Below are positions 1-59,000 of a DNA stretch of 64,000 nt, piece by piece. The DNA comes from Temnopleurus reevesii (lineage: Eukaryota; Echinodermata; Echinoidea; Temnopleuroida; Temnopleuridae), in the NCBI GenBank assembly GCA_036244855.1, contig BQKZ01000010.1, positions 61,881-125,880 on the forward strand, in the 5' to 3' direction. The translations under genes were made by a program, and so were the position numbers. The notes under the pieces were generated by a model. The model had not been told where the DNA came from. It saw nothing but the letters and a program-made list of their open reading frames with translations, and made no database searches. Position 1 is the first letter of the stretch; every line of letters starts with the position of its first letter.

Positions 1-127
1 TCCATCTGCATCTCTCATCTCACACGATAGACTAGGAGAGTTGGTCATGGATGGTGGGAGCTTTGCATTGTAATTGGTAAATTCCCTTAGTTTGGGGTCA
101 TTCACAGCACCACCATCATTTGTTTTC
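1..127 (-). CDS. Hydrolase gene exon 21 (continues beyond the window)
   Basis: Encodes KTNDGGAVNDPKLREFTNYN and on to RDADG, open to the window edge. The acceptor AG lies at 128-129. A 46-bp tandem repeat (106-151 and 152-197) covers the acceptor and the first codons, giving a second AG 46 bp upstream. Confidence 0.8.
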
Positions 128-3100
128 CTGTTAGAAAAACATGTCAAAAATAGCACCACCATCATTAGTTTTCCTGTTAGAAAAACATGTCAAAAATACA
201 TCTCATAAAAAAATTATCCTGCGAAGTACCGAACAATCAATTCATGTAAAAGAATAGCCTCTGAAAAAAATAATCATTTTACAATCTAAAAAATTCACAG
301 GATGACTTATGTGTGGTTGAGTAAAATATACTGTATTGGCTGAAATTTTGCTGGGGTTTATTTTCATGAATTTTGTGACTCATTAGAATGCACATAGACT
401 TCTGTATACAATAATCCTTCAAAAAATGAAATCAACAACTCACCAAGTGAATTAGCTAAAAATTTATGTACCCTCAAATAATGGCTTTTCCTGTACAAGG
501 AAAATGGAGTTCTAACCAAAACAAAAATCTACTCTCTGAACACTCTATCAATCATTGGAGCGACACAATAAGTAAAAGTTGGATAAACACATAATCATTG
601 TTGTGAAAAAAAATGTTTTTATCTGACTATGTATTCCTCCACCACTTGCCTGCACGCTCACTGTATGTAACATTCACTGGGAGAAGAAGGGACAAAGGAC
701 TAGGACAAAGTAAACAACTTTATTCAAGTATCCACAATAGCTCCATGATCACAAAGAGAAAGGTGCAACCCTTGTTCAACATTGTCCACAATATTAGAAT
801 AATGGAAATTTCTTTTTGGGTCCGTATAACTATCAGTAATGCTTGAAAGGAGGTTGCCTACTTTGTTGCTTGCTTTTTCCCTCCTGCTCACAGTACATGG
901 ATCTGTCTCCCCTTCAGCGGTTAAGTCATTTGCCTGCACAAGAAATATTACCATGGAAAAAGACATTTATTTTTCATGTATCTTACCATGTGTCCCACCA
1001 CCAGTGTTCCTTGCCTGCCAGCTCACTGTATGTCACATTGATCTGTCTCTCCTTCAAAAGACGATTCATTCGCCTGAAAGAAAAAGGGTTTGAAAGGAAA
1101 CATGTTGCAGTATGTGTACCATTGCTGTTATATTCATAGCCATTTTTTTAAATTACCACAAAGTCTGTAGATTCAGTGACAAGATAACTAGGAGCCGAAC
1201 TGGCTTTGAGGCATCACTAGCTCGCATTCACACGGTGGCGCTAAACTTGTCTGTCCCCTCGTGTGTGCCTCATATTTGTTGAGATGTGCAGGGGTTCATA
1301 ACAAAAATAATAAATTGCTGGAGCATCAAGTCTTGTTTTGTTCGGATATGCATTGGTTTAATTCATGACAGAGGGAAAACTGCAGCTGTCTATATCTCTA
1401 AATCTAAATACAGGCCTCTAAATACAGGTATCATCAATATAATGATCGCACATATAATAAATTACATTCTAAATATACTTTGTACATACCTCACAAAATA
1501 GGGATGGACAGTCCTGTCATTAGCACCAATTCTTGTCAGGACTGGCAAACCCTGTAAAGGAGATAAAAAAACATAAACAATTTTTACTCATTCTCAGAAA
1601 TGCAATCGCAGCATACAGCAATTATACTAGAGGGCATAAATATTCACTGTGGGCAGAAGGGACAAAGAACTGGAACAAAGTAAACAAATTCATAAACAAA
1701 TTCATAATTTCTACATAATCACAAAATAAATTCCCATGTTGCTCATCTTATTCAATATTTTCCAAAGAATGAGAAAATGGGAAATTTCTTTTCTGTCCGT
1801 CTAGCTATCGTAAGTACTTGAAAGGAGGTTACAATAAACTTTGTACCGAGCCTTTGTCCCTTTTGCTAACAGTGAATGTGAACATGAAAACATGAAAAAA
1901 CATTTTATTTAATCAACATATCGAAAGGGGTAGATCACTCTCTAAAACACTGGTATTCATTGAGGCCCTTGAAAAAGGTAGATCTGCTTTCCAATAAGGA
2001 AGGCATACATGATACCATTTGTACTGTTTTATTGATTACCATAAAGTTAAACTACAAATACATAACAAATTAAATATAACATTTTATTTTTCTTGTTGAA
2101 AATAATAATTTACCTGGAGGTTTGATATATGCCTATCTGCATCATTTTCAGCTATGCAAGCCTGTTGGGGGAAAGGGAAGCAGAGAATGTTCACTAGATA
2201 ATTATTTGTATACATATCGCTATATTGGGCATAACAAAAGTGTGCCAAATATATCATTCAACATATAGACTTCATAACTAATCCATAATTTTTTGAAAAT
2301 ATTTTAATCTTATATCTTGGGAGTCCAGTGACTCATTTTGATTCAAATAAATTAAAGAGGCATGCTCTTCAAAAATTGGGTTCTAATGCAAGGACTTCAT
2401 CCACAGATTTTTGATCCTTGAGAAATCAAGTGTTTGTTTCAAATCAAAAGTTGATGATGATGAGGAAGTCTATTTACGTGATATATTATAAGTGAAAATA
2501 GTTTATGTGTTTAATTTATTTTGCATTATTTGAACTACATGTACACAAATTATTTTCATCATAAAAAGGCAAGCTTTGTTTCATTTGCATATGAATACGA
2601 AAAAATTACATCCAAATTCATCATATTCTAAAAAGAGTTTGTCCAGAATGGAAACTATAAATATGAGTACGATCCAGTGGGAGAGCTTGGGTAGTATTTG
2701 ATGAGGTATATGGGAATTCAATGTTTACTTCTCAAATGCCTCGGAAAAAAACATTTGGTTCAGCTGTTTGGTTATTCATATTCTAATTTCTAACCTAGCA
2801 AACTAATCCAGAAAGTTGGTAGGTCTGCAGCTGCAAGATATCATGTATCATATTGGTTTAATATCATTGTGAATCTACTTACCTCTAATATGTGTTTAAC
2901 TGCTGGATCTGTATGGCTGGTACTTATATCATGCCTGCACAAGGATAAAGACATAAATTAATGAAATTGTGGTAAAATATTTCATGGATACATTTATCCC
3001 ATTGTCCAGTGGAACTGGGCAGTCCCTGCACAATGTCTATGAGATTTACATAATTCAGTATTAAATGGGATAACACAAAAGTTATTCTTAGAAACCAGAA

Positions 3101-6100
3101 AGCTTGGCTAAAGGCTTGTGAGACATAACAACAAATACACCTAGAGCTCTCCTTGGCTAATAGAAGGCTAGATACCGAGCCAAATGACCATATCTGCCCA
3201 GAGGACTGGTCAATAAAATGTAAATGTACTTTTTGCACTATCATTACCCTGGTTTTATCCTCTGAAGACCCATGATCGGGTACCGGATAAACTTTCACAA
3301 ATGAGTCACTGCAGGGCTCGACCTGCACAAATGAGGAAATAAGGATTCCTTCATTCAAAGAAAAGCTCCTTATCCCATTCAGTGACACAACCACACAGTA
3401 TGAAATGACTTCTATATCAGGCTTTAAACTAAATATCCTGTTTCACCAACAAAGATGCAAAGTTGCAACCATTTCCAAAGTGAGTTGAGATAAGAGCAAG
3501 AGTTCAGCCAAAGAGTTATAAACTGACAGTAATTTTAATCTTACCTGAAAAATAGATTGCTATTTTACTCTTCTTTCTTAATCCATCCCGCCAGAGAGAC
3601 GACGGCAAGAGCTCTGTCAGGGTAGTGGGTAGCTAGATGCCACGCCCCATGGCCCTATGACCCCTACAACTCCACTCTCCCATATAGATTGACCAACAGA
3701 GATCATCAGACTTTTCATTTTCCATTGGGAGCTAACATATGTTGCCAGAAAGTTTCAATGGACTGCAAATCAATTACAGATCATTTGCAAACTGAGATGC
3801 ACATTTCCATTCATGCATGCTCTGCATTTCTAAAAAGACAGGCATATGCCAATCAACTGGAACTAGCAATCAATTGCAACTTTCTAACGACGCCCCTTGA
3901 CAGATAAATGCAGTGATGACAACTTTTATAGATTTTAATCTTACCTGAAAAATAGATTGCTATCCCCATAGTCTTCTTTTTTGATCCATCCCGCCAGAGA
4001 GACGACAGCTAGAGCTCTGTCAGGGTAGTGGGTTGCTAGATGCCACGCCCCATGACCCCCCATGGAGTGGCCAGCAAAGATCACCAGGTCCGTCATAGGT
4101 TTGTTAGGCATCCAAATTACGTCAGACATAAGCTGGTGAAATGAAATAGTATCATTCATTAAAAAACAGTGGAAAATCATAAACATTAAGAAATTTTTAA
4201 TAGACATTTCATTGGCACATGGCCAAGCGGTAATGGAGAGACACTTTGGGCTACATTACCATCATGTTTCTGTTCTATGCACAACTGCTTCCAAATTATA
4301 GAGATTTCTTCAGGCTACAACAGTGGAAGAAATGTTTGGGAAAAATTATTGTGCTTTTTTTATGGAGGGGGGGGGGGTAAAAATGAGAAATAAGTACAGG
4401 CTAGTGAAGAAGAGACGTCAAATAAGGGCAAATAACTACTAGTCTAAGACCTATGAGTACCATTTGGCAACAGAGTGGGATATACAGGGATGCCAACCAT
4501 TCCAAAATATGCATGAGGCGTATTTTCAAACAAATGCAAGTCTTTCAGTACAAGTATATGGCTGAGTATAGTCACTGTTGCTCAGCTGTTGGATCATTCA
4601 CATTTAAACCTTCATCTCCATCATATTCTTGAATAGTTGGCTCCTCTGGATGAGTGATATCTCGTTGCACAAATTGAATAGAAGATTGAAATTCAACCCA
4701 CCTGATGCAAGCGTTCCAGTGCTGTCATGGAAGTCAGAGTTCCCGGTCCCTCCCAATTATGAGCTCCATGCCTGGTTAAAAGAAAAAAATAATTACTTCA
4801 TTACAGCAAAATATATCAAGGGCATGTATCTACAAGCATAGTGGCCTATATCATATTGTCCACATTGTACAGCTCTCAACACAGTTCTTGTCAAAGTCAA
4901 AAGCTCGATCTTGTTGTAACTTTTAATTTAAAGAGAGAGCGAGCTTAATTAATTTAATCCTGATTACAATGCAGCAGAAGACTTGCTTTTGACAGATAAA
5001 GATGAACAAAACAATTTATTGATTTGATTAAACCCTGTTATATGAGAGGAGTCAAAATGATTGCCCTGAATGTGAAGTAAATCTGGCCACATTCTTCCAA
5101 AAGGTCGAAAATATAAAACTTTGAATTTTCTAATAACACCTACCTGCTTTACGCAAGAACCCAAGCCTTCTCTAAACCAAAGAACCATTGATCTTTCTCC
5201 ATTCTCTTATATCCATCTGCCTGGTTCTGGGCTTCAACACCTGTCCAATGCAATGTCAGTAATACCTTACACAAGGGATATATAAGATCTCTGAAATATC
5301 TAATCATACATACCTACTTGGTGCGAGAACCCATGCCTTCTCTAAACCAAACCGCCATTGGTCCTTATCCATTCTCTTGTATCCATCTGCTTGGTTCTGG
5401 GCTTCAACACCTGTCCCATGCAATGTCAGTAAAACCTGGTACAAGGGTTTATAATAAAAAGGAGCCGTCATAAGGGACATCAGAATGGAATATGAAATGT
5501 CATGACATCTATACACAACTACAAATTTGTGGTAATCAAAGGGCAAACAAACTATATTCTATCTATTTATCAAGCTCTTCCACTTGTTCATAATGTTTTA
5601 AATTCCTGTTCATATTGGTTTTACTATCTGCAACAATTCCTATTTTTACACTGACCACTCTAGTGCTCTTCACTCGTGGTTTTCTCAGGGCTCGTGTTTC
5701 CTTCACCTGAGGACGAGTCAGTTAATTCTACTTGGAGCGTTTTGTTTTTTTTCTTTTTTGAGCTCTTGAAAGATAACCCTACACCACATGGTACAACCAC
5801 AAATCTTTTTTGAAAAATTTGAAAAAATTTTGAGAGAATTAGTCAGAAAATATCATTGGAAATTTTATTTACACTGTCTAACCAAATTATGAACATAAAT
5901 TTCATATGTCACTGTATGACTATTGTACAATAGTTGTTAATAATGCAAGTAAGTGTTATTGGAATATGATGGATCGACACTTCAATGTTCATATGCCTGA
6001 GCTTTTACTTACTGGACACTGACCTAAAACACAATCTTCCAGCGGCTCAATAGCAGCCGCTTGCTGGACCTGCATAAATAATAACGAAGAGAAGAATATT

Positions 6101-9100
6101 AATATATAATCAATTTGGTTAAACTCTATAAATTCTTTTCCATTTCTACTTACAAGAATGCTGTCTCATAACGATTGAGAACTACAAAAGGTTTCCACAT
6201 TCTTATTGAACAACCCCCCCCCCTATATGGAAGATCTTTTTTAATACCCAATTAACAATGGGATTGGGTTGTTTATACACTCGCACCAGATGGATGTTTT
6301 TCTATCGCTTCTTTTTTACACCCAAGTATAGCAGACCTACACAATCGCAGGATCTTGGGGTTATTAACCCAAATGAATTTGAAGGGTTTGAGTCTCACTT
6401 AAATAAAAATGTTCTGCAAGTTATAAGAAAACCTTGATTTTTTTTGTGCAAGCTGATTAACCACAAGCATTATGTTATATTTCTCCAGAAATCATGAACT
6501 CACCGAGCCATCATGATCAAGAAATGAGAAGAGGAACGATTCCTGCCTCTTTCTACATCTGATCTTCACTGGTAAAATTTGGGCTTCTTTCACCCCAGTG
6601 GCAGATACTTTAAGCTTGAAGCTGTAAACCATAAAAGAGAATAATGATTATCAAAAGAGATGAGAATGAAGACAAGATAATATATTTTTCTGTTTCCAAT
6701 TTTAACAGGTTAAATCTGGACCTATTGCATCCCGTACCAAATATGTTTACCTTGAAACAGTATAAAACCAAAGTAGAGAGTAAAAATATATAGCAAACCA
6801 TATGCCACAGTACAGCATTATGAAGTCTCAATTGAGTAAAAATACAGAAGATGGTAAACAAATCTGAATTTCAATGTAATATCTAAGATGATAAAGAGAT
6901 CAAAGAGATAGAAATCAGCCAAAAATGCAGCATTCGTTGAAAAGGGTAATCTAAAAAGATACTAAATACTGTCAAATCACAATTTCAGGAATATTCTTGA
7001 TTCTAAATTTGGTTTGCTGACCAATACAAGCGATTTTAAATTTATAACAATGCAATTATAGATTCCTGAATATTCTAAAGTGTTTGCAAATAATAATTCA
7101 AAGTATTTGCTTGGGAAAATTATTTGTTGATAGGACCGTAACTCACATGATATCTTTGCAGGTGTCCTGTGGGACATCAAGGCCCTCGTCATTGAGAATA
7201 AGATGGACAGGGATGGGAATGGTCTGTCCAGGGGCTACGTTCATAAGACTCTTCTCTCTGGCTACAGACACGGACAAGTCTTGTGATGGCTCAGCTAGAC
7301 TTACTCTGTATAAGGATAGGGAAGATTATGATAAACAAATTAATATGTCTGGAACTAGCGAAATTGTATTTGCATGCAATAATTCAGGAAAAAAAACAAC
7401 TAGTTCACATATAAGGCAATCAAATCCAAGGGCAGCCCAAGGATGTGTCAAGAGCAGAAGAACAATTTTTTTAAAAAACTACGATGCTGAGGAGTAAGTT
7501 GAAAAGAAAAAAACATTTGCATCTCTGGTGATTGGTGAAAAGAATTGCAAACACATCTCTCATCAAATAACCACACGCAACACTTGGCACCATTACAGCA
7601 GATTTCATGAGGAAAGGATCAAACACAACCCCCATTAAATATTATCATCAACATTTCGGCAGGGAATAATATCAGAAAATTTCAGACTCACTTGATATTA
7701 TTGATCCATTTGCTTCCCTGAAGATTGGTGAAAGGAATAGCAAACACATTTCCGATTAAAGTATCCCCCATCAGGTTGTATCACAAAAGGATCATCATCA
7801 AACACATATCACAAAAAAAAATCATCCTTATAATTTTGGAAGGTGATTAAAATGACAGACTCCACACTTACTTTATATTCTTGATCCATTTACTTCCCTG
7901 AAGATTGCTGAAAGGAATGGCTAACACATCTTCCATTAAAGTACACATCACAACATCTGGCACCATTACAGCAGGTTGTATCACAAAAGGATCCCCATCA
8001 AATACATCTCACAGTATAAATAATAAGCCTTATAATTTTGGAAGGTGCTTAAAATGGAAGACACCAGACTTACTTGACATTCTTGATCCACTTGCTTCCC
8101 TGGAGATTGGTAAAAGGAATGGCAAACACATCTCCCATCAAAGTACCTTCGACAACATCGGGCACCATTACAGCAGGTTGTATCACAAATGGATCGCTAT
8201 CTTTAAATTAGTTTGAACAAAGTACAAGAGGGGAGAGAAATGAATACAGTATACAGGTGTCCGTATGCAATTAGAAAACTGTAACATTTTTGCATAGATA
8301 TATCTTACAACATTCATATGAGCCAAATATGCACATATAAAACCATTGCATTGCAATTACATTGATGCCAGTACAATATTACCAAAATGTGTATATGCAT
8401 TGTTGCACTGTAAGTTTAATTAGAAATTGCATATTTTCCATTCTATTAGCGCAAAATTAATAATATCAGATCCTTTATCAGATCAACATCCTAACGAAAG
8501 TTCACAAGCCACACACATAATCAATACAAGTGATGATTAACAAAAGTAAAATTAATAGTAATCTTTCAGATATTTCTCTAAGATTTCTTAGAATGATTTA
8601 ATGCAGCATTCATATGAATGTCTCAATTATGAAAATCACTTACCAGATGCTTTTATGTTACAGCTGAACACCTACAAAGATAGGAACACAAGAAAAATCA
8701 AATTGTCAAATGTACAACTATAAAAAAAAAAAATAATAATAACTAAGATGTACGTTTGTAAAAGCATAAAAATGTTGCTATTTTTTCAAAGAATGTCCAC
8801 AAAGAAGCCATACATGTAGGTCATTAAGATTCATAGAAATTTGATGTAGAATTATTAAAACAAGTTTCCTAACCCCATCATAACCTTGGCCTCAATGCTT
8901 TGATATAAGTGATGTAATGTTGCTTGCTAGCTCTGTATCAAGATTTTATTTTCTCGTAGCATCTTTAATCCAGAAATGCTTTTCATGGAAAAAAAACAAT
9001 TCACTAAAGATCTAATGAAAAGATTATGCTATTTAATTAAAGTAATTAAACTATAAATAATCAAGTGTTTATTATAATACCTGTGAACCTTTAGCCCTGA

Positions 9101-12100
9101 GGCGAATATAGATTGTGTGGATGCCAGCATCAAGGGTAAGTGTAAACCTGCATAGAAGAAAGTAGAGAGTGTCATCACGCATACATGAGTAACTTAATCA
9201 AGCAGTCAACTCTGTTGTACATCTGACAGCCACTTTTATCCTTTTTTACATGTATTTCATTTTATGAAGTATTTAAATCATAAACTATGCCTAATCAAGT
9301 TAATGTGAAGCTTGATAGTACAGCAATAAAATTTCCTCTTCTAATATCATTTTTCTGACATCTATCATTTATTTTCAGAGACACAGACATAAAACAATTT
9401 TTATCACAATAAAATTATTTAACGAAACATCCAAAGAAACACTGGAACAACGTTATCAGGAATGTTCATTTCATAAAATATGTAATAATAATTATCCTTT
9501 TCAATCATATATTATGATGATCACTTAATATAAATTCCTATGAATAACAATGATTAAGGTGTGATTTAAATTCTAACTAACCAGAACTGTGCTCTTCTAT
9601 ACACATCGGCAGCAACAAATATTCCATCAACAAAGAAAGTATGGACACCTACCAAAGAAAAATACAAGAACATTTACACTTATCATAACATTTTACGAAT
9701 TCTTTTTTCAAAGCCATTTCAAATGCATAAATTTATGTGTAGTTTCCTATTTATCTGATTTTATTGCAATCAAATCACCCATGTTTTCACTGTTGCTAAA
9801 AATAGTGTGCGATATATTTGAAAATCTTGTTAGTCATTGTTTTTTGTTAATGCATCTTTAATTTGGTCTATTGAAATATCAGAAGTTTTCAAGGATGAAG
9901 CTGACAAGAGAAGAAAAAACTAAGTTTATTTTTCAGTGTAAATCAATGAGTATAAATAAAATAATTAATAAACATATACCTACCTAAACATTGGATGGAA
10001 ACATCTCCTTTAGAATTGACAGCAAACTCTCCAACCACCCATCCCTAAAAACATAAGGAAAGAACACTTGTCATCCATCACACAATCTTTACATTACTAG
10101 TGATATTTCTGTACAAATATTTTTTAAATATCTTTGCAAATAGACTCATTATTCAGACTCATAACAAAAACGGTTTTCCTGCAAGTGTTTTCTTTTCTCG
10201 ATCAATTGGCCACACTATGGATGCAAAATCACACAATAATGACTGTGTTTGCCACCGAACATGCATCACTCGGATGATATTGTAGACAAATTTCAGAAGC
10301 CTTCTTTCTCAAAGAAATATTCTTCAGTAACCTGTCTTTTGGTATTCAAAAGTTGAATTTCTCCCTCGCTTCTCAAATCTAAGCTTATTAATAAGGAATT
10401 AAAAAAACTAAACCACTAAAGATCCGAATTCTGTCTAACTTTGATGTGACAAGTCACATACTTTGATTACCTTTAAAAATCACAACAAAGAGAAAAAAAA
10501 CCTCACCTGCCATTCAGAGATGGCTAATGATCCCAGAGATGAAATCAATTCATTCCAGTTAACCTCAGGAGATATTTGGACATTTTCGCCAGCTTTCTAG
10601 AGAAATAATGAATAAGAAGGTGGTGAAAAACTACATCCAATGTTTTGTGATTGAAATCATTGTAGTTTTATGTAAAATAACTGACAAAATGGGAAACTAA
10701 ACATACTAAGAATAAAAGATCCTTTGAACAGTTGCCATGGTGGAAGAGATAATTTTGTTTGTTTTAAAAATGAAAATATTATCAAATATGATATGATATG
10801 ATTATAAATTTGATATTTATTGTTATTTTACAATCACATCAATATTCGCACAATTTACAATGGACGAGGGATAATCTGCACTTAAAGCAGCCTTACCTAT
10901 AAGAAAATATATGAAATCATATTATTATGCTATAAATCCAAGAACTATATTTGCCATCGTCTATTCAAAGCTCATTTGGATTCATTTGCAATTATTATGC
11001 TTCTAATTCAGTTTCAGAAAAACAAACCTTCGGAGTAATAATACAAATCTTCAAATTAGCATCCACATATGATTAGTTTGCAAAGAATCTGTGTAATCTA
11101 ATGCTGGAGATTACTTCCAAATTTTAAGTTAAACTTACTGTCTGAGAATATGTTTTCCACTTCACCGTCCCACCAGGCATAAGCTCAGAGTAGAAGGTCA
11201 CCTTTCTACTGTACCTCTGCCTTGATGCATTCACTATACCTCCCCAGAATTCTAAAGGGTCGCCANTTCAATGACATGAAATGTTTAAAAAAAGATTATT
11301 CACACAAGCAGATATACACTTTTTTCTCTAAACACAAGGCCGAGAGTTTATCGTTGCATTCCTTTAAAACCATACTTATCGAGTTTATGAAGTAGAGAAA
11401 GTAGTTTATACAATAAATAACAAGACGGTTTGTTTTATTGTTAGATAAATGGAGACATGTGCAAATTATCTAACCTTGTATTTGAGCCACAACATACATT
11501 TGATTTGTCTTTATTAGTGATTCGCTTCTGTTTATAAATGCTTTCAATAAAATCTGGCATTGAAAAAAAATGTACAATTTTCTTCATAAGGTTCATAGGT
11601 CATTTCATGAGCCTACTCTGATCAAAGCAATAAGATAGAACAGTAAAATTAGCACTAATTTTATTATTTACGAGATAACCGCATGACCCTTTCTTACCTT
11701 TGCTTTGTTCCCCAGGACAATGCTAAGACCGAAACTAACAAAAGACAAAACTATCCTTATATCGCGCCCCCCGATTCCCGTCTCCGTCTGCCACCGCAAG
11801 GTGGCGCTATATAGATATAGATCTCCATTTTAATTCATTCTTCACAACCCGTACTGCTATCCTAAGGACGGAGGTTGCAGGGCCGGTGGGGGGGGGGGGG
11901 ATAAGAGAGGGTCATGCGATTATCTCGTAAATAATAAAATTAGTGCTAATTTTACTGATTTACTGCAATAATCGCATGACCCTCGCTTACCTTTACTTTA
12001 AGTCATGTTACTGACCAGCACCGACAACCCTAGGGCGGAAAAAGAAGGCAAGAGGAGGAAGAGGGCTAGGAGGATTTCTTAGTGCCGAGATCCGAAAGCT

Positions 12101-15100
12101 CTTCATCCGCGCAGACGTCGCAAAGATAGAAGGAATGAAGGAGTTCTTAGAACGCCAAGAGGCTGCCTTCACAATGTCCTCTGTGCGAACGGCCGCGAGG
12201 AGGGCCCCTGACGACCTGATACTCTTGTATCGTGCGTTCTAGGCTCTCTCCCCGAAGATAAGGCTTCGGGGCCCGCCGCCTTCATACCCTCCACGATCCA
12301 CCGAGAGATGGGAGAGGGGGAAGCAGCCGAGGACGGCCTCTACGTGGTGACAAAGGTTTGTCGTACGAACGTAGAGGCCGAGACTGGGACAAGTGTCACT
12401 TGAGTGCCCTGACTGGACACCAAACCTTGTCCTCAGGATTAGAGGAGAAGTGGAGAGTTTTGAGAGAGATCTCCACTGGGCCCGAGACGTGCGATTGATG
12501 CTTGGCATTACGGAGGTCTCTGGGCTAGCGAACCCCACGAGGTTCAAACCTCGTGTGCCCCGCAGCTGTGGTCAAGGCGTGAATAACACTATGACCCGGA
12601 GCTGCGCCACCAGAAGCACCGTCTTCACGGTCAAGTGGAGAAGGGGGCATCACCCCAGGGTTCGGATGGAGGGCGAGCTAAGGTTTCTAGAACCTTAGGC
12701 AGGCTCCACGTTGGGGCTAGAGATCTGGGCGACGGTCTCTTCAGAAGGAAAGACCGTAGAAGCGGCCTAATTCTAAAGAGTACGACCTCGAGAACCGTCC
12801 GGCAACCCATTGTGGCTAGCCACAATGGCAGAACGGTAGCCTCTGATCGTGGGGAGAGAGCCTTGTCGAATATGGATTGCGAAATCCGTCTATGACACCA
12901 CTCGTCGAAGGCCGTGAGACGAGAGTTGTAGACTTTGAGGGTCGAATCTCGCCTACTCTCTGCTAGGAGCGAAGGGGCCTTAGCCGAGAACCTCGGCCCT
13001 ACCGATCCCGCCCTGACCGAGGCCACGCAGTCAGGTGAGGACGGTCCGGGTCCTCCGAGAGGAGCCCGGGAGTGGTTGACTCACGACGTCCGGCCAAGGG
13101 CAGAGACCACGGATCGTCAACCCGGAGATTGAGTAGGCGTGGAACCCGGACAGTTAGGGGCGATCAGCAGAATCTGAGCTCTGTCCTTCCCGTTGATGGG
13201 GACACGCGGGCTGGGATTGGAGGGAGGGAAGGCGTAAGGACGCAGATCCCCCCCAGCTGATCGGGAACGCGTCGCAGGCTTTCGCGTTCGGATCCCAGGT
13301 CATGGCACCTTACCTCGGTAAACGATGGTTGATCTCGTTTGCGACAGGTCGAGGTCAGAAGGCCCCCATCTCTCTACGCGTAGTGGAAGAGAGACTGGTG
13401 AAGAGCCCCTACCGACGGAAGGGATCTGCCCCCGGGTAGGAAGTCTGCGGTGAGCCTTTCCTGGCCGGGGAGGTGTGTGGCTGATGGGAGGAACCCCGCG
13501 TCAGGCACCGCTTCCAGAGGCGGATCGCTAACCGATTCAGTCTCCAGGAGTGCGTCGCTCCTTGGCGATTGATGTACGCCGCCTCCCTCACATGTCGTGA
13601 GAATGAGGACGGAGTGACCTCTCAGGCGATCCTGAAGTGACTCAGGGAGGCCTGAACTGTCATCAACCCCAGAGCGTTGATATGGGGAAGGGTGCTCAGG
13701 TGAGACCCATCCCCCGCAACGTAAGTCCCTTCGCCAGACCGCCCCATCCCTGAAGGGAAGCGTCTGTGATGACGGTCACTGAAGGGAGAGGACTGAGGAA
13801 GGGCTTGTCCCTGGAGAGGGGGCGGGCATTCTTGCAAGGGCCCAGAAGACGGGTCACCCCGCGTGAGAGGGGACCGACTTCCGGAGGTGGCACTCCCTGT
13901 GTGAAGTACAGCCGGAGGTGCCACTGGAAAGGGCACAAGAGAAGGCGGCAGTTTGGACGAGATCCGTCCACTGGCCAGGAGGCCGCGAAGCGGCTCCACA
14001 CCTTCGCCCTGGACCGGCGCAGCTCCCCTTGTCCCGAAGCCATGCCTACTCGGGCGGGCAACGTCCAGTTCGGCTCTCAAGTAGGCAGGCTTGCGGGTTG
14101 GAACAAGTTTCTTTGTCCCAATCGACCGCGACGTACCGTCTCTGCGTCCACTGGAGGAGGACCTCTACACGTTGTAGAGAGGTCCTTCGAGCTGGCTACC
14201 AGTCGCCAGTCGTCCAGGTAGACATGGAGTCTGAGCCCCTGCTCCCGAAGGAAGTCCGCAAGGGCGCCTACCACCCGTGTGAAGACACGCGGGGCCGGGC
14301 TCAGGCCAAACGGGAAGACTCGGTAACGAAGGTCTTGCCGAGGTCCGCAAGCCCCAGAGGTCCCCGATGCGGGATGAATAGGTACGTGAAGGTACGCATC
14401 CTGCAGATCGAGGGGCACCGCCCCATCCCCTGCCCGAAGCGAGGGGAGCAGCAAGGCCAACTAGTCTAGACGATAAGACTCGTCGGGGGTGCGCAGATCG
14501 AGCCTCTGTTGGGGAGCATTCTGAGCTATGATGAAGTCACTGCCTCACCGATCTCGAGTCGTAGCGAGACTAGATGCGGTAGGCGTAGTTCGCCCTAGCC
14601 CCGCCTTCCAGCCCGACGGCGGGAACCGGCGGAGGTGCTGGGGGAGGGCCCTTGTCACTTGCGGCCGGCGGCAGTGCCGGAGCCGAGTGACTCGGCCCAC
14701 CCGACCCGGGTTGGTCCCAATGCCAGAACCCGTGCGCAACGGCGGGGTACGGGCCGTGACCCTGGTGGTTCGGCGCCGGCAGCGCTACCCACCATGGGTC
14801 CGGGTAACCGGAGCTCTTCCTTCTACTCCTAACTCGTTTCGTAATGAGAGGCTGGGTAGGCTGCTAAGCCGCGGAAGCGGCGGGGTAGCCACGGCGGGGG
14901 CTTGCTTCGAAGGTTTCTTCGAGGAAGATAACTTCTTCGCCCACTCCTCCGTCTGCTTCAAGTCAGACAGTTCGAAAGCGCCAAGCATGTGAACTTTCCC
15001 CCGTCGAGAAGGGGGTGCCGCTGGATTCAAGAGATTCTATCCAGGGCCTGACGTCCGGAGCATCGGACCGGCTAGGTGTCCGAGCAAGGCTCTCTGCCGG

Positions 15101-18100
15101 TCTTCAGTGCACCGGAGAGAAGCTGCTGCCACTTGCGGGAGACTAGGGCGACAAGAGGGAGTAGGATACTGTCAAGCGCCCTTGCGTCTTCCGTCGTACC
15201 ATTCAGGTCAACCGAACGGGACCGAATGGGCAGTGGCATTGCTAAGAAGGCAGAGGGTCGCCAGAGCGGATGCCCCCTTCTACCTCTTGCAAACTGTGGT
15301 TGGCAGGGTGGTAGGCCTTGGCCTTGACCTATCTGCCGCCCCTCACACCCAACCGAGAAGCCTCCTTGGAGGCTCTCTAGGTGTGAGCGATGCCTCCGTG
15401 GGGGCGTCGTCGAACCCAAGCTGCTCCCGCGCTTCCTGACGGAATAGCTTCCGTAGTGTAAAGCGGGGGGCCTGCTCAGTCCGCGCCGCCAGCATGCACT
15501 CTCCAGTCTGGAGAGGCAAGGTCTGGCGGGCGTAGCCGTCTCACCGACGCAGTCCCCAGCAGAAGCTGGGGCACTCGGGGCCAGGTCCGCGGGCGTCTGG
15601 GCGACTGCGGCCGGTGTGAAGTCGTCCGTGTCAGAGCTTGGAGACTCCACCACCTGCACTGTCGCGCCTGCAGCCGTGCGGGGAGCGGGCCGAGGCGGAG
15701 GGAGTGCCGGTGGGCCACGATCACCAGACACCACCGCTGTGGCGTCGGGTTCCAGCCACCGATCTTGAGTCGTAGGAGCGACTAGATGCGGTAGGCGTAG
15801 CTCCCCGAGCCTCACCGTCCAACCCGAAGGAAGGAGCCGGCGGAGGCGCAGGGGGGAGGGCCCATCTCATTCGTGGCCGGCGTCAGAGCCGGGACTGAGT
15901 GCATGGGTCCACCTGACCCGGGTTGGTCACGGCGCCAGAACCCATGCACATCGGCGAGGTACGGGCCATGACCATGGCGGTTCGGTGCCCGAGGCGCTAT
16001 TCACCATGGGTCAGGGTAACTGGCGCTCCTCGGGTCTGGGAAACCAGGGTATCGAGGGCCGGTTTTTCCCGGATATCCGGATATCCGGTTCGGGTCGGGT
16101 CGAATATCCGGTAGGCGGCAGCGGATGCCCCTCGTAAGAGGGAGCGTGGCCGCCTGCCGGGATACTAAGCCCTTGAATGGCGTTGCGTCATTCTGGGGCC
16201 CTGCGTCCCGATTCCGAACCGATGGGTAGCGGTGTTCCCGGCCTGCGGAGCACCACTAAGCACTGTTAGGGTCGTGCCACTCGGATCCCATCCCGAGTTC
16301 GGTTTCGCCGGCATTGGTCCCGCACCCCACNTCACCTTTCTACTGTACCTCTGCCTTGATGCATTCACTATACCTCCCCAGAATTCTAAAGGGTCGCCAT
16401 CTACTTCGGCTTTTCCAATGACAAAAGGACCTGGAAAGCAACATGAAAAAAGTGTATAACATCTGATCTATAATTCCTAAAGACACAATAAGTAACAATG
16501 AAGATGCTGAAGCAAAAGAGAAAGGGTTATGGTTTAGTTGAACAGATTCCGTTATCTTCTCTTGATTTGGCACAATTCTATTTTTATTTCGAAAGTACAG
16601 AATTTGGTATAAATGCAAGACTAGCAAGAATCTTTACCATTGAAAAAGATAATTAGCGGAAAGTTATGACAGTGACTTGAGATTAGAGTTCATCATAACC
16701 ATGTTATCATAAATTTGACACATGGGCAAGAAAATCAATGCAAGCATCCTGAACAACAAAACTGATCACCTATAAAATGAAAATGATATCCCATACAAAT
16801 TTGAAAAGGGCTTAATTGTCGAGCATGTTTCAAAGAGCACAAAGTTAACCATATCAACTACAGCATCTAAAGGGGAAGTCATTAACAATTGTGATCGTAG
16901 CAAATGGGTTGAAACAAAATTTAAACAGGAAATCCTTCTCACAAAATTGATTAACAGTCTTTGATCCATGGAGAGTTTCATCATTTGCAATATTACCAAA
17001 CATTTATTTTGAAATTACAAGATATGTAGAAACTTATGAGAACTATGTTTCATGATCTTACCTATAAAAGACCACTGATTCACAAATTCACTAACTTTGC
17101 CTAACAGCTTTGCTGATTGCTTAAAGCAGGTTGTAGCCTTTGCTTTCTCTCCTTTCCCTGAATAAATTTCTCCAAGATACGACCTATATTGGAGACACAG
17201 GATATGACATTCAAGCAATCAAGTAAATTTACATAGGAAACATATCTACAAAATTAGAAATTAGAGCAAGCGAATTAGTCTACAGAGTTATCCAAAGTGA
17301 CAGACAGGCCAACATTCATCGTATAAAATCATTGCCCAATTTTTCACAGTCAGTTTGAAAAGATCTACATACATCCCAATGACTAACAATTTTAATGACA
17401 TGGCTGATGTTTCAAGTTTAGGTCTTCCCAGTAGTCATACAGTATTTATGTGTAATTTTGTATTGCATGTTTTCCTCAAATGTTTCAATTTCATAACACA
17501 TGTTTTGACATGCAATTGAAAAGCAATATGTAATACACTTTAATTATATATACAAATGCTGAAGAAAAAGTCCTGAATATGACATTAACTATTTTCTAAA
17601 ATTGCAATGTATTACCTTATGAGAGATGAATAAATGCTACTTGGTAGCTCTAAATATACTCACCAATTCCAGCCATTCAAGTTTGATGTCGACAATGACT
17701 TTAATAAACATCCAATTGCTTGCTCTACCTGTATCAAAGAGAAACAATATCTTGAAATGTCTTTCATGAAAGAATTGTAGCTGGCCTAAGAAACATATTT
17801 ATTTAACAATTTCCTTTTCCATATCTATTGCTGGTAAGTTGTCCTTAGAAGACTTGGATTATCATTTTGAAAATTATCAAAATGGCATATATCAATTTTG
17901 TAATTGTCATTATGGTGGTAAATAAATGATGCATTTGTAAGTAGCTAGATGAAATGTTCACAATAATTGGGGTAGAGGACAATTTAGAGGAATGACTGAG
18001 AAACAGAGGGTTCTTAACTTTCAATACCTTACATGTATATCTCATATTCAGAATAACCTAAGGAATGATCCATAAGTAAACTCTTATCAGAATAAGTTTA

Positions 18101-20356: not shown

Positions 20357-20689
20357 ATCAAATTTGCAAACTCCCAAAGGTTTATTAAAGCCCGAGTACA
20401 GTTTTGGTAAGAGCGAATATTTTCATCACCATAATTTATCTTCAAATCTATATGAAATGAACTATAGTATCATAAACATATTACACAAAAGATTGTGCGA
20501 AAAATGAACGAGTTTTGGAAACGCTATAACCTAAAATGTGCCATTTTTTTCAACATTTTCTTTCTTGATAAAGGACAACTTCCCATGCTCAGAATTGGAT
20601 GAAAATTTAAGATATTAATTGTTGCGTATATCTCTATTAGTTAGGCGGTTTAGCTCCAATATTATGAGGAATTGTGCACTTTTTGATAC

Positions 20690-21860
20690 AAGCACCAAAT
20701 TTGGCACACAGGTAAATTTGCATGCTACGAAAATTTTCAGATATTGGGCCACTCAAAATTCCGTCTCCAAGTCGGCCATTTTGGATTTCAAAATGGCCGC
20801 CATTCGAAATTTACATTTGTGAATATCTCTGGCTCCAATAATGCTATCGACTTGATTTTGGTGTCTAAATTTATGTTTTTATGGGCAAGGAATCCGATGG
20901 TAGCAATCTCCATAGCGTATTTTCTACCAATTAGTCGCCATATTGGATTTCAAAATGGCCGCCATGTGAAATCAACATTTGCGAATATCTGAGGGTGTGA
21001 TAATGTTAATGACTCAATTCTTGGATCTAAATATATGTTTTGGGGGCCGATGAATCAAATGATGAAAATGTGCATTATATTTTCAACCAATGGACTGCCA
21101 TATCGTATTTCAAAATGGCCGTCATATGAAATCATACAATCTTAACCTAGGGCTGAGTTGACAATAAAACAGAGTAGTGAGGTGGCTTGCACTTTGTGAT
21201 ACAATGACCAAATTTGGCACATAAGTACTTTATAGCATGTTTTAAACACTTTCAGATATTGGGCCATTTGGAATTTCATCTTAATGTCCGCCATTTTGGA
21301 TTTTAAAATGGCCGCCAAATAAAATCTAGATTTGTACTTATCTGTACAAGAAATGCTGCTATTTAATTGATTCTAGTGTCAAAATACATGTTTTCAAAGG
21401 CAAGGAATCCAATGGTAACAATCTGCATTACATCTCATTATCCGATGGGCGGCCATATTAGATTTTAAAATGGCCCCCATTTGAAATCTACATTTGTACT
21501 AATCTGTGAGTGAAATGCTGCAAGAAAATATTGACTCAATAATGTGGTGTAAATATATGTTTGTGGAGGCAAGGAATCCAATGGTAAAAATTTGCAATAC
21601 ATACAGTGTAATTTCAACCATTGGTCAGTCACATTGGATTTCAAAATGGCCTCTATTTGATTTAAATTTGCAATCATCTGCGGGTTTGACGCTTCTATTG
21701 ACTGGTTTCTATATATATATATGTTTCGTGAGGCAAGCAATCCAATTGTATTGATCTGCATTGCATTTCTTTATCTAATTAGATTTCAAACGACGGCCAT
21801 TTTGAAATTCAAAATAACTGTCATTTGAAATCGTAATTTGCACTTCTGTCAGTGTTTGTC
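20690..21860. repeat. Degenerate tandem array of about 160-190 bp units with a small palindrome
   Basis: Units are marked by CAAAATGGCCGCC or variants at about 20789, 20951, 21111, 21304, 21465, 21642 and 21810. Several are preceded by GGCCATTTTGGATTT, so each centre can fold as a hairpin. Units also share GCAAGGAATCC and AATCT-CATTTG blocks. No coding potential. Confidence 0.75.
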
Positions 21861-22009
21861 TAATGGCGCTACTGATTTGATTTCCATGTTCATATGTAAA
21901 TGTTCTTTAGAGGGCAAGTAATCAATAGATCAATGTGTATTCTTTTACCAATATAGAACTCTTGAATTTATGGTATACATGTATTTTATCAATAGACTGC
22001 CATATCCAA

Positions 22010-37961: not shown

Positions 37962-40900
37962 CTGTCGAAATAGAAAATAATGGAATAAGAAAAAGTGCCT
38001 CTGCTAAATTTTTCGCGCAGTTGGCGTCCCTGCCTTTGACCGGGGAGGGGGCTTGGGTCCCTGAAGCCCCTTAAAGCCTAATCCCATAACAGTGCGTGCA
38101 TGTTGCACTAACATAATTCCATTGTTCAATAGTAGAGGTCTTGTGGTTATATACCTGTACTTCAATGACAGGGTCCCCGGTTCAATTCTCGTCGGCACTA
38201 ATTTCCTTTGGCAAGATATTTATCCACACTAGCCACTCTCACCCATGTCCTATTTGGGCACCGGTAGGAAACAATCGTCTTGTGGTGCGCTAGTGACAGA
38301 CGAATGTAGTGACCGGGTAAAAATGATATGATATTTTCATAAGGGATTGGTAAAGCACTACGTATGTAAAAAAAAAAAAAAAAAAAACCGCACATAATTA
38401 TTACTCTTAAAAGTAATTTATAACCAGCTTCAAAGTAATTTCATATTTTCTGAAGCTAAGTATTCTAATTTGTAACATATTTGATAATAGAACTTATAAG
38501 TACTTGATAATGAATATCCGATGTTACTCATACATCAACCACAATATTTTTAGTTCATTAAATGATTTTGAAGGTGCACAATGTAAACTTAGCTCAATTC
38601 TGAAGAAATAAAATTATGATTTGATAAAATTAGAAACTTTCAGAGCACTAAATTAGACGAATATATCAATGTAACCTATGAGGGACCGCCAAATGAGGGG
38701 GGGGGGTGCTGGGGCTACAACCCTCATGTTTTTTTTTCATGTAATACATGCAAGCCTATGGGAGTGTGGGGAAATGGTATAGATAGTCTTCCTGAGGCGG
38801 TCCCTGTCCCTATTTGTGATTGAACATCTAAAAAAAAATCATTCACCTCGTCGATGGGTAAAACGACATCATCAAAAGGAGCGGAGTCGTTGCTCAGGCA
38901 TAGGAAGCCTCTGATCTCGATGGATGATATGCTGGTTGGACAACCAATGTCGATGGTGACTCGGGATTTGATCTCGAGTCTGAGTTCGAGAGAACCCAGC
39001 TCCATGAACCACACCACCGGGACGACCACGGCCATGTAGATGAGGGATGATGGAACGAACCTACAAAATAGGGTGAAGAAAGAAGAGAAAATAAGATGGA
39101 ATTAGAAAGAACGACAGGGGATTTGATCTCGAGTCTGAGCTCGAGAGAACCCAGCTCCATGAACCACACGACCGCGACGACCACGGCCATGTAGATGAGA
39201 GGTGAGGGAACGGACCTGCGGAAGGGGGTGATGAAATATAATATAATGCAATACAAACTCGAAGAAAAAGAACACTTTTGCCCCGTCTTTCATATCTTAT
39301 TTAGCTTCCTCCAAAAAGATTCTTTTACGTTCTCAAGACGTAATAAACTAAATTTGGTTGTATTAAGAACATAAAAAGTTACTAAATTGCACGAACCTTT
39401 AAGGAACATTCTAAAGTTCCAAATACGGGACTTAAAGAATCCTAAAACAAACCCGTTTTCTGGTAATAATGATATCAAAAACTATGTCACCACAATCAAA
39501 TCATTACGAAAGCGGGTTTCCTATGTACTGTCAAATGGTAATCGATATAAAGTAGGATTGAATTACAGTTGCGCATTAATATTTCTGTTTTCAAATATAT
39601 GTCTAGTAGGAGTGATGATGATGATAATGATGAGGAGGAGGAGGAGGAGGAGGATAATGATGGTGATTATAATATTTTCAAACAAATTTGATTATTTTCA
39701 GAAATGTATATGAGCTTTCAATGTATGGGCCTTTTTCACAAATGCTAAATACATCAAAAACTCCCTGTTCATTGTTATAGTCGATCTTTTTGTTTTCTGA
39801 CCTTGTCCTTGCACATGTGTGCATACATGACGTGCAGATGACATCACGCGAAAAATAAAATAACCATTTTGAATCGCTAAATACCTTATCAAACCATCTT
39901 CATGAGGATCAATTAATAAATAAGGTTTTCAAGAGCCTTCTGATATTCAGTAGAAACTCGATTTTACATCCACATATGCAGCTAAAGTTGGTAACAGTCA
40001 CAATGACAGATCAATTCTTGGGGTTGGGCAGAAATATGCTTAAAATCTTAATTCATTGGAGAGTTGTTTTTTAATTCATAGAATTATAAACGATACTTTT
40101 AACGCCCCTTCACACTTCGTCAGTAAATTATCATTTTAATGGAAAATTTGAGGTAAACAATTAAAGACCGCATACGCCTTTCCATTTTCAACGCTGAAAA
40201 GGGGCGTTGTCATGACAATTATTGGAACCACTCATGACTCGCCGTTTTTCATAAACAGCTTTTAAATGTCATTTCAATATGGAAAGTCATCTTTCAATCC
40301 TAAAAAAAAAAAATTATAAAAGAGAATTATAGAAATGGGACATCTCCGAATTTAATATTGCGACGGCGCTTCCATTGCGGTATCGATTGGTGTTGTTCTT
40401 GTAAAAACACAGGCTTCGCATTCGCACAATACAAGATGACACCTTTGCTGGAATGATGGTTAGGAATATTTTTTGTTTCATATAGTCTCCACTTTATTGC
40501 TCATCGATTTTGGATTTTGAAGAGCTAATGCAAAGGTTATACTGTCTACACTCTGATGTATACCGAGAGAAAGCAATTCATGCATTCATGCATAATTTTC
40601 CTCATAATTTATATAAATATACTTTTTATTCATTATTAATGATAACATGTTTCAAAATTTCATATGCCTGTTTATATCAAGGTTATCATCAATTTCTTGT
40701 ATTCTTTTCAATGATTTTACCATCTTTTTTTCATTTAAAATATTTAATTAGCCTCTCTATCCCTTGTATGTTAGACAATTAGGTTCCTTTAAATTAGATA
40801 TCAAAGGTACCGGAGATCGAATCCAGATAAAGCATTAAATTTGTATCCGACTTTGGAAAATTATTGGAAAATATGTTACATTATATAGTTTGTAATTATG

Positions 40901-42524: not shown

Positions 42525-43100
42525 AGGCTCGGTCACACCTTGGCCTTTATACAGCCAACGTCCAGCAAGCGTTCACCAGCGCACGTGCACGCAGAAATAC
42601 GGACGGGAGACGCTTGTACGACGTTGAATACATTGGCTCGTACTCGAATTACCCACGTGCTGGTGATGAGGCTCCATCAAACCTTGCGCTTAAAGTCAAC
42701 GTTTGTCCGACGTCATAAGATCTGAAAGGCACTCCGTGAACGCAGAAATGTGGATGGAAAGACGCTTGAACGACGTTGACTGTATTTGGCTCGTACTCGA
42801 ATTACCCACGTGCTGGTGATGAGGCTCCATCAAACCTTGCGCTTAAAGTCAACGTTTGTCCGAGATTCATTAAATATGAAAGACGCTTCGTGAATGCAGA
42901 AATACAAAAGAAAGACTTTTAACCAACCTTGAATGCATTCGACTGGCACTTGACTAACATATGCGTTATAGTGCCAGTTAAGCGTCTTTTCTTGCGTCCA
43001 TGGACAGTCTTTCAAATTCCATGAACGCTTGACAGACGCTGGACATAAATGCCGGGGCGTGACGTTGCATAAAGGCTGAGTCAAACCTTTGCGTTAATAA
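42525..43100. repeat. Degraded TIR element with internal tandem duplication
   Basis: Starts AAGGCTCGGTCACACCTTGG and ends near GCATAAAGGCTGAGTC, which are weakly inverted. Inside, a block of about 95 bp with GGCTCGTACTCGAATTACCC (42630-42710) recurs at 42788-42868, a period of about 158 bp. Confidence 0.6.
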
Positions 43101-44753: not shown

Positions 44754-45023
44754 TGAAAAAGATTGATTAATATATATCGGTACATCATGACTTTGGCATT
44801 CATACCCAGTCATGCAACACAATAATACCAACAACGTTAAAATAGCTTAGCTGGCATTATTAGAACCAAACCCGGCCCCACAAGGACAATTTTACAACAC
44901 GTGAAGGCTCCCATATACAGCGTACCTGATGATCTTTGGAAACCAGACCATTCCAGTCAACTAAAAACAGGTAAAGATATTTAAATTCTTATAACGTTGG
45001 ATAACCTCCATTGCACTTAGCNG

Positions 45024-45750: not shown

Positions 45751-45876
45751 AATAAGTGAGAAACGGGCACAAAATTGTCAAGGAGTGCCAAACTTGCTTA
45801 CTTTATTTTATTTGTTTGTTTGTTGTTGATGTTTTGCGTGTCAGGTCTTCAGCAATTGGGGGGGGGGGGGGGGCGG

Positions 45877-46540: not shown

Positions 46541-46631
46541 NNNNNNNNNNNNNNNNNNNNNNNNNNNNNNNNNNNNNNNNNNNNNNNNNNNNNNNNNNNN
46601 NNNNNNNNNNNNNNNNNNNNNNNNNNNNNNN
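46538..46631. other. Assembly gap inside a poly-C/poly-G tract
   Basis: 94 N flanked by G and C runs. Likely a sequencing failure in a homopolymer. Confidence 1.
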
Positions 46632-50400: not shown

Positions 50401-50548
50401 GCAATAGAAGTTTTCCCACCGTTTTCTATCTTTTTTTAATTCTTCTATAATATATTCATATTTATCTATCTTTACAAATCATACACATATAAGCTACATT
50501 TATTCTGCTCATCGCACACAATTTTCTTTCTTTCCTTCATCAGTCACT

Positions 50549-56053: not shown

Positions 56054-59000
56054 CTTGTGTGAAAACGACACGAAAAAGAAAACATAATGTTGTAAGATCA
56101 AATCAATTAAATTTTATGGGCAATCAATTTGAACTTTCAGAAATGACATAAACCATTACTCTAGATTAAGATATATGTAATACAGTCAAAATGTACTGAT
56201 ATAAATGTTATTATTGCGGAAGTATACAAGTGTTAAGCATGTCTGAGACGAATCACAATTGGCACTAGATTGAGAACAAGCCCGGTTATAAAGTAGATAA
56301 GGAAAGATACGCCAAATGAAAGAAAAATAAAAGGAAGACGTATATAAAACTATAAAAGTAGATTTGGAAAAGAGAAGGTAAAAGAAGTGAAAGCTGATTA
56401 ATCAAAATACAGCCTTTATCAATCCATCACTTATAAACTTCATGTACCATAATGTACTAAAATCATACACTGTTCTTGCTACCTACATGATTGAGCTTGC
56501 TTGTGTTGTTCCCTATAATGTTCTCCATATCCACTCCGCTCTCGTCTTCGAGTGTATCTGCGAGCTTCGCAGTGCACTCGTCATAAAACGTTATGGGGCA
56601 AGATGACATCCCTGAGGAACCCACGAAGTAGATTCGGTAGTTCAGTGCGTAGATCTCAAGTACGATTATACATGGCACGACCCACAGCATGTAGATGAAC
56701 ACACTCGGTATGAACCTATGAAAACAAAATGTTGACAAATTTGTTCTTATATTCTCGCTTCACAACATACAAAAAAGACCATATTACTATTACTTGCACA
56801 ACATCTACTTCTATCCCTACTAATATCAGTAATATAGTAATAGTAATAGCAATATTTAATAGTAATATTTTTTTCCTTAAAACCCCGGGCACATAGAGGC
56901 CCTGAAGCAACACGATTCAACACGATTCTTTGTTGATTCACAGTTAACTGCCTAAGAACAAAGAGTCGTGTTGAATCATGTTGCTCCCCAGGCCCTATGT
57001 GACCGGGGCTTTAACATATTGATAATGATCAAATTACATGATTATCATAAGGGTATAATACTGAAAAATATTGTACAGAAAATATACCATTACCTTACAA
57101 CTAATATGCTGTAAAAACAAAATTGAATGCTTTCACGCTAAGTTAGTGATACATATCCCAGGATGATAGTGAATTGTTTTAAGCCAGGTGCAGAAATTAC
57201 TGAATAAGTTCAGCAATATGACCAACCTGTACTAGCTTTGTGTTTACACTGAACTATTTTTTTTACATGTCGCTGTTAAATAAATAGTGTTAAATCGCTT
57301 GTTTACCTAAGATCTACAGAACCGCTGAGCTTACAAAATTCATGTGAGTTGTTTAGGCCTAAATTTTGGCTGAATTGGCTAAATTTCATTTGGATTCTCC
57401 AAAATGTTAGCGATTGTCTCTAAACTTTCCACATATTAATTTGTTTTAATGATCATTCCAAATTCAGGACATTCTTGCCAAGTCGAAACGAAAGTGACAT
57501 TTGCCATCCACCCCAAAATGAGTCCATGCGGTATTTGATTAACTGAGTTACAGCGTTGTACTCAGATTTACCCCTTTTTGACACAACGCCTGCTGTTTAA
57601 TATCAAAGCTATTATACACCCCGTTCTCATGATAAAAGAGAAGGAGCTATCCTCTTTTGGGGCACTCAAAATGCTGGCGTGATCCCGTAATTTTAACTGC
57701 AATTTGTTCATAATGTGAGAGATTAAGAGTGGTCTTCTTGTCGTAATGAGGAACCCGACCCCACCCCATCCCAAAAGAAATAGGGGAATGAGGATAAATT
57801 CTGAGGGCGGTTTAATTAATAATTGTAATTTCCAGGCGCTCTCCAAGACTTATGAACACATCAAAGATCGCACTGGCGAGCAATAAATTTAGTAATAACA
57901 ACAGCGTCATATATTTTGACCCTTACGACATTAATTACGAATTTGTTCAATTTGGCATCTCTTTCCCACAAAATATGCATTGGGATTATTAATTTTCTAT
58001 CATTATCATCATCATGAATATCTTGGCTTGGAATGGGTTACGAATTGTATGTTTTATATCAGTTTGATTGGCAGTCAGAAAATTATAATTTGTTTATTAG
58101 CCTTATCCTCGATGTACTCACAATTTAAAAAAAAAATAATTGGACGCTAATTGAGTTTTATAATAATATTTTATAACCAAAAAGAATTCCACAATACATG
58201 ATTGTACATTGTATGTACGCAGTATATACTTTCATAATTCCTTGGAATTAAAGTCTGATTTTTATTTTCATTTTGACTTTTTACTATATTTTCTATGAAC
58301 AGATGAAACCAAAATCTTCAGCCTTTAAGTCGTCATGACTTTAATTAGTATATTGCCCCAGAAACAGATGTACATTGGAAAATAATGACGTTTGAGGCAA
58401 CGAAAGGCCAACAAACTGGTCTTAATTTATATGTTAATAACATTCTTTTGATTCGACTTGTGAGCCAAAATAATGACTTTGTGCCAAAAAACTGCTAGAT
58501 TAAATTCTTGATTTGTATGATTTATAACATTCTTTTCATTTTTGAAAATTAAAAAAAATGATATTGACAAAAAAATCAGTTCGGGCCAATTTAAAATGGT
58601 TGGTCGGTGGAGGCAACAAAAAAATATTCTAAGGCCTAATTACGCTTACCATGTCCATTCCCCTTTTCTCTTGTACTTGATAGTGAACTGTTAATGACCT
58701 TCGAACTCCCCCCCATTGGTATATTCTGTCAGAAACAGATGGCTGTGCCGCTGTATACTTCACTTCTGGGCCAAGTAAAGCCGAGGTAGTGTCTAAAATT
58801 GCCTATTTACAGCCAGATTTCCTATGTATAATTAAACAATTATTTTGATCTTTCTATTTGAATGAAAAGTAAAACAAACCAATAAAAAATCAAGTCGGGC
58901 TAATTTCAGAAGGGTTGGTCGGTGAAGGGCAACAAAAAATATTCTAAGGCCTAATTACGCTTACCATGTCCATTCCCCCTTTCTCTTGTACTTGATTGTG

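Follow-up and report, generated by a model that had tools for sequence, protein, structure and literature searches.

Exon copies in a minus-strand hydrolase gene

We analyzed a 64,000-nucleotide stretch of the genome of the sea urchin Temnopleurus reevesii (assembly GCA_036244855.1, contig BQKZ01000010.1, positions 61,881 to 125,880 of the forward strand; hereafter the window), focusing on repeated local duplication of exons in a hydrolase gene that lies on the minus strand at the low end of the window. Exons 2 to 21 of this gene were placed by splice sites and orthologues, exon 21 being truncated by the window edge. In a protein comparison with a query of 625 residues, the best 120 of 190 matches included the Strongylocentrotus purpuratus "uncharacterized secreted protein ARB_06907" (82% identity, 100% of the query), a Lytechinus pictus protein (79% identity) and a Diadema setosum protein (72% identity over 97% of the query). 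Similarity to ARB_06907-like secreted hydrolases extended across all 625 residues compared, and the Pfam family Esterase (PF00756) scored 27.3 bits against a cut-off of 22, which assigns the gene to this group. The product carries GHSMGG, which we take to be the nucleophile motif. With the live (A) forms of the exons, exons 5 to 21 gave 510 open residues with no stop. A literature search on ARB_06907 returned no match.

Copies were searched by comparing 20 exon intervals with up to 5 kb on each side, exon 4 entering as a 127-nt part only. The sequence-only reading had described extra copies of exons 10, 14, 16 and 20, each with flanking intron, each on the 3' side of the live exon, and each decayed or doubtful. 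The results confirmed that these copies exist: all of them outscored the maximum of 60 block shuffles, the lowest-scoring being that of exon 20 (59 and 49 against a shuffle maximum of 34). Live exon 10A (8074..8200, 127 nt, placed by splice sites and orthologues; all exons and copies described here are on the minus strand) is followed by an array of three extra copies; among the first three copies of the array the spacing is 202 bp and about 180-200 bp. The nearest, 10B (7872..8007, 136 nt, AG at 8008), shares 86.2% ungapped identity with 10A; 10C (about 7692..7807) has an internal deletion with a frameshift and no AG, and 10D (7514..7620) has lost its 3' end and donor. Live exon 14A (5314..5435, 122 nt, likewise placed by splice sites and orthologues) and its spare 14B (5144..5265) form an exact 170-bp tandem with 84.3% ungapped identity, in which HGTG is altered to HWTG in 14B and a stop stands near its end. 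The partial spare 16B (3545..3709) lies about 400 bp from live exon 16A (3945..4132, 188 nt) and is 90.2% identical to it without gaps; it is missing the exon's first 45 nt as well as the acceptor, and contains a stop. The spare of exon 20A (987..1073, 87 nt, splice sites and orthologues) is 140 bp away; this copy, 20B (629..933), carries a stop, is interrupted at about 676-893 by a roughly 220-bp element with inverted ends, and differs from 20A at 10/39 and 6/40 positions in its two parts.

An element of about 230 bp with inverted ends of about 40 bp occurs twice, at 669-899 and 1639-1878, one copy lying inside 20B; this pair was treated as a repeated element and left out of the exon-duplication count. 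Weaker matches were also left uncounted, namely exon 10 at 7621-7678 (36 against a null maximum of 33), exon 16 at 3137-3217 (45 against 37) and exon 21 at 4601-4694 (36 against 32).

The flanking intron shared by the copies is present but short. It amounts to 19 + 25 nt for exon 14 and 0 + 13 nt for exon 16, where flank homology past the 13 nt of intron was not above shuffles, while firm homology of the exon 10 copies starts about 1 nt upstream of the exon. The description of the copies as decayed holds for 14B and 16B with their stops, for 10C with its frameshift and missing AG, and for 20B with its insert, but not for 10B, which is open, in phase, and has both AG and GT.

Two further duplications were found in the same gene. 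At exon 21, whose live acceptor side occupies 1..127, outside the range covered by the sequence-only reading, a 46-bp tandem of the acceptor and 5' exon end (143..188) lies 5' of the live unit at 97-142. The duplicated unit comprises the intron end and the exon start, and its 3' copy runs on into the exon. At exon 12 (6504..6621, splice sites and orthologues), an old decayed copy (6626..6779) abuts the live exon on its 5' side; this 154-bp stretch aligns to the acceptor flank, the exon and beyond (69.4% ungapped). This copy scored 73 against a maximum of 32 among 160 real segments of roughly the same length, and exceeded by a smaller margin, 60 against 50, the maximum of 300 dinucleotide shuffles of about 11 kb. 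It was also flagged by an exon-blind tile scan, which by itself is not background-free (132/1035 tiles at score 60 in direct orientation, 35 inverted).

All six duplications counted in 1-11138 share 20 nt or more with an exon (P = 0.0005 under random placement). The corresponding value for the best-preserved four (exons 10, 14, 16 and 21) was 0.006, and that for at least 4/6 duplications containing a whole exon was 0.0007. The test was post hoc, with estimated unit lengths and 17 exons. The oldest two duplications (12 and 20) are easier to detect because their live copy is conserved; retention of copies that were in use would explain the exon bias, and a mutational preference is a possible source of it. 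The idea that small local duplications arose repeatedly in this gene is borne out, six of them falling on exons above random placement in this post hoc comparison. Local duplications off recognised exons occur elsewhere in the window, for example at 42541-42960 and 20641-21900.

Codon-position bias in the spare copies

We then compared live and spare copies by codon position. Differences at positions 1, 2 and 3 numbered 4, 3 and 12 for exon 10 in the ungapped alignment (2, 2 and 11 gapped), 3, 2 and 11 for exon 14, and 1, 0 and 7 for the 96 aligned nt at the 3' end of exon 16. Pooled over the three exons, 13/43 differences fell at positions 1+2 (10/39 with the gapped exon 10). Excluded from this pool were the 5' 44 nt of exon 16 (1, 2, 4), whose inclusion gives 16/50 at positions 1+2, as well as exon 20 (3, 5, 2 and 2, 2, 2) and the comparison of 10B with 10C (1, 4, 7).

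Simulations in which the spare was neutral and the live copy constrained gave a mean of 25.4 at positions 1+2, with 0/5000 runs as low as 13, whereas constraint on both copies gave a mean of 13.6. Individual P values under a neutral spare were 0.032, 0.009 and 0.008 for exons 10, 14 and 16, respectively. In simulations of part-life constraint (400 runs for each of the transition weights 1, 2 and 4), a spare constrained for half its life was rejected (P = 0.0025), three quarters of its life was borderline (P = 0.018 to 0.053), and its whole life was accepted (P = 0.32 to 0.46). On these sequence comparisons, neutrality from birth was rejected for exons 10, 14 and 16 jointly and accepted for exon 20.

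These values bear on the view that the spares are by-products of random local duplication, neutral ever since they arose, and that the codon bias is a small-sample accident. Exon 20B behaves in this manner, 14B and 16B carry stops, and off-exon duplications do occur elsewhere in the window; set against this are the low individual and pooled probabilities for exons 10, 14 and 16 and the overlap of all six duplications with exons, and we regard the view as unlikely. The related proposal that the later copies are set free fits exon 20, but the codon-position constraint speaks against it for exons 10, 14 and 16.

The orthologue comparison used protein models of three echinoids (S. purpuratus, L. 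pictus and D. setosum). Each of the four downstream-duplicated exons has a residue that is common to the live and spare copies and absent from all three orthologues (Q for H in exon 10, S for T in exon 14, L for V in exon 16, and Q for G in exon 20), so the duplications look younger than the splits from these echinoids. The fit to S. purpuratus favors the A copies of exon 10 (31 against 28 of 41) and exon 20 (28/29 against 12/33), while 14B is marked as the spare solely by its stop and altered HGTG. The three protein models contain a single version of exons 10, 14, 16 and 20, in which the T. reevesii gene differs from these ARB_06907-like proteins. In the Amphiura filiformis protein model P0004, an exon-11-like stretch occurs twice at residues of about 28-88, with 27/29 residues identical; another exon may thus be duplicated there, as judged from the protein model only.

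Exon 4 (11139-11265 and 16332-16440) is interrupted by a GC-rich block at 11266-16331, which has a single N at each bound and a reverse-transcriptase-like open reading frame (ORF). The block looks misplaced by the assembly because 68 identical exon bases stand on both sides of it. The single-N joins and the repeated exon 4 bases indicate that the assembly is not flawless, and an origin of the spares from a diverged allele or paralogue, through unequal exchange or assembly error, would explain the coding constraint without alternative splicing. However, the exon 14 copies are an exact, abutting 170-bp tandem, the repeated exon 10 copies have intron flank in common, and the first N stands at 11266, with none within 1-11265. 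In addition, the third-position difference of exon 14 is about 27% (11/40), which is large for alleles, urchin heterozygosity being a few per cent. Such an origin is therefore highly improbable in our estimation. For the exon 10 and exon 14 copies, an assembly artefact was judged unlikely from the exact tandem structure and the absence of N.

Splice sites and the side of the spare copies

The donor-to-acceptor gap between adjacent copies was 66 nt for exon 10, 48 nt for exon 14 and 53 nt for exon 20. Replacement of 10A by 10B left the frame open over 513 residues, whereas joint inclusion of 10A and 10B ran into a stop at residue 149 of the combined reading frame, and joint inclusion of 14A and 14B an early stop. 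Skipping exon 10, 14 or 16 also led to an early stop, while skipping exon 20 kept the frame open. Neither exon 10 nor exon 14 has a length divisible by three, and therefore only one copy can be productive per transcript; use of one or the other copy would constitute a mutually exclusive exon situation.

PMC5740500 lists as criteria for mutually exclusive exons that they are neighbouring, similar in length, in the same frame, homologous, and bounded by GT-AG. The 10A/10B pair shows each of these features: the two exons are adjacent and homologous, 127 and 136 nt long, in the same phase, stop-free and flanked by GT-AG, and their joint inclusion is unproductive. A steric-type arrangement is defined by a donor-to-branch-point distance below 50 bp; the whole stretch between 10A and 10B measures 66 nt. 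With its codon-position bias, 10B is an intact candidate mutually exclusive exon on sequence grounds. The other pairs fall outside the criteria: 14B by its in-frame stop, 16B by its stop, its missing AG and the absent first 45 nt, and 20B by its stop, its insertion and the lack of GT at the aligned donor.

Splice sites were scored with rough matrices trained on 17-18 sites of the hydrolase gene itself. The acceptor of 14B was weaker than that of 14A (0.7 against 5.5), while those of 10B (-1.5 against -3.3 for 10A) and 20B (8.9 against 4.9 for 20A) were not. No aligned AG was present in 10C or 16B, and good donors were kept in 10B, 10C, 14B and 16B. The live 10A acceptor (window 8180-8220), which adjoins the exon 10 array, was the weakest of the 19 scored in the gene, the next lowest scoring 3.8.

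The fixed polarity that had been proposed, with every spare downstream of its live exon, is contradicted within the same gene, since exons 12 and 21 have the live copy on the 3' side and the spare on the 5' side, a configuration that the sequence-only reading had itself named as refuting. At exon 21, splicing to the 5' acceptor runs into a stop, while the downstream acceptor by itself yields the complete reading frame. The spare was 3' in 4/6 duplications (two-sided sign test, p = 0.69) and in 3/4 whole-exon cases (exons 10, 14 and 20 against exon 12; 0.63); the 4/4 cases on which the proposal stood correspond to 0.125.

Copies in two TMEM26-like genes of the same window, the best named matches of a TMEM26-like protein being sea urchin proteins, likewise occur on both sides. 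In one gene, whose Pfam match is slightly under the cut-off and whose assignment relies on its neighbours, a spare comprising the exon 2 acceptor flank and the first part of that exon (39113..39273) lies 5' of the live exon, which starts at 39060; use of the upstream acceptor would shift the frame (spacing 155). In the other, a spare of the exon end, donor and intron (58531..58686) lies on the 3' side of a live exon whose end is at 59001 and below. The codon-position differences of the truncated TMEM26-like copy (2, 2, 5) are uninformative.

A true polarity would arise if the first copy were favored by splicing, or if downstream copies were born without their native branch point and polypyrimidine tract and were free to decay. 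The majority of 3' spares, the weak 14B acceptor, the absence of an aligned AG in 10C and 16B next to good donors, and repeat units that start close to the exon are in line with this explanation. It is opposed by the 5' spares at exons 12 and 21 and at the TMEM26-like exon 2, by the acceptors of 10B and 20B, by the codon-position bias, according to which 10B, 14B and 16B were not free, and by the sign tests; we consider it improbable. Fixed polarity through first-copy splicing is rejected on account of exons 12 and 21, and weak composite acceptors were rejected as its sole cause because those of 10B and 20B are not weaker than their live counterparts.

The side of the live copy follows from geometry in the partial copies. 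A unit restricted to the 3' part of an exon, as at exon 16 and in the TMEM26-like copy at 58.5 kb, necessarily leaves the complete exon on the 5' side, and a unit restricted to the 5' part, as at exon 21 and TMEM26-like exon 2, leaves it on the 3' side. Which part of the exon was duplicated thus determines the live side, and only whole-exon copies (10, 14, 20 and 12) can go either way. Some side bias may also come from a second copy having the weaker acceptor, as in 14B and 10C, though not generally, as 10B and 20B indicate. The survivor would be the copy that retains a complete exon with its splice sites, on either side. The tempting rule that a spare exon is always downstream falls away, and the geometric point holds for any apparent polarity in partial exon duplications. 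Polarity of duplicated exons was absent as a topic from the matches listed in our literature searches.

Further features were noted outside the hydrolase gene. At 42584-42958 a 153-bp unit is repeated about 2 times, 0.6 kb upstream of a long minus-strand ORF resembling a TMEM26-like first exon. A 0.65-kb direct repeat (91%) at 45023-46536, beside Ns at 45022 and 46538-46631, possibly represents two haplotypes assembled one after the other. The minus strand at 28446-29078 contains pieces of a sialyltransferase-type gene (PF00777), and the plus strand at 50408-52409 pieces of a sulfotransferase-type gene (PF19798), the 50408-50761 piece being under the cut-off.

Proposed birth and death of alternative exons

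We propose, with a probability of roughly two in three, that the gene records how alternative exons were born and lost one after another in the lineage of this sea urchin, with no fixed polarity. Short local duplications of about 46 to 400 bp and of differing ages, probably produced by slippage or unequal exchange, would have affected exons of a single secreted alpha/beta-hydrolase gene on at least six occasions. The spares of exons 10, 14 and 16 would then have kept evolving as coding sequence, most simply through splicing as mutually exclusive alternatives, after which 14B and 16B would have gained stops while 10B remained intact. The codon-position pattern gives signs that these three spare exons were formerly in use; splicing of any B copy is inferred from the DNA.

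Several observations weigh against this proposal. The codon test relies on few differences and assumed constraint values, with some rows excluded, and 20B appears unconstrained, positions 1+2 holding 8/10 differences in its 5' part and 4/6 in its 3' part. Past use of 16B as an exon requires a later loss because it lacks the acceptor and the first 45 nt. The L shared by the exon 16 copies is a weak marker of age since Patiria, Mytilus and Lingula proteins also have L. Moreover, 14B fits the orthologues about as well as 14A (S. purpuratus, 33 against 34 of 40; L. pictus, 33/40 each), and the orthologues were compared as protein models only.

According to PMC9013439, tandemly duplicated exons are common in animal genes. 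The 10A/10B pair resembles mutually exclusive exons derived from tandem exon duplication in being neighbouring, homologous, in the same phase, bounded by GT-AG and predicted to be productive one at a time; 14B and 16B depart from such exons by their stops, and 16B also by its lost acceptor. PMC5740500 mentions that in SCN8A one mutually exclusive exon contains an in-frame stop. In a stronger version, the gene would have repeatedly bred mutually exclusive variants in and before the catalytic core by exon-focused duplication, the stop-bearing 14B, and formerly 16B, serving as poison alternatives that switch the enzyme off and 10B providing a second enzyme form; we hold this version to be distinctly unlikely. 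PMC4974935 describes a potato RdRp in which a tandem duplication across an intron-exon boundary gained a new intron. Exon 21 and the TMEM26-like exon 2 similarly duplicate an intron end and exon start in tandem, but here the upstream acceptor would lead to a stop or a frame shift, respectively, and in exon 21 the downstream acceptor alone provides the full frame.

Under the proposed birth and death of alternative exons, one gene would provide a small time series, consisting of the intact candidate 10B, the coding-conserved but stopped 14B and 16B, the neutral 20B and the ghost of exon 12, thereby leaving a testable case of how alternative exons may be born and lost.

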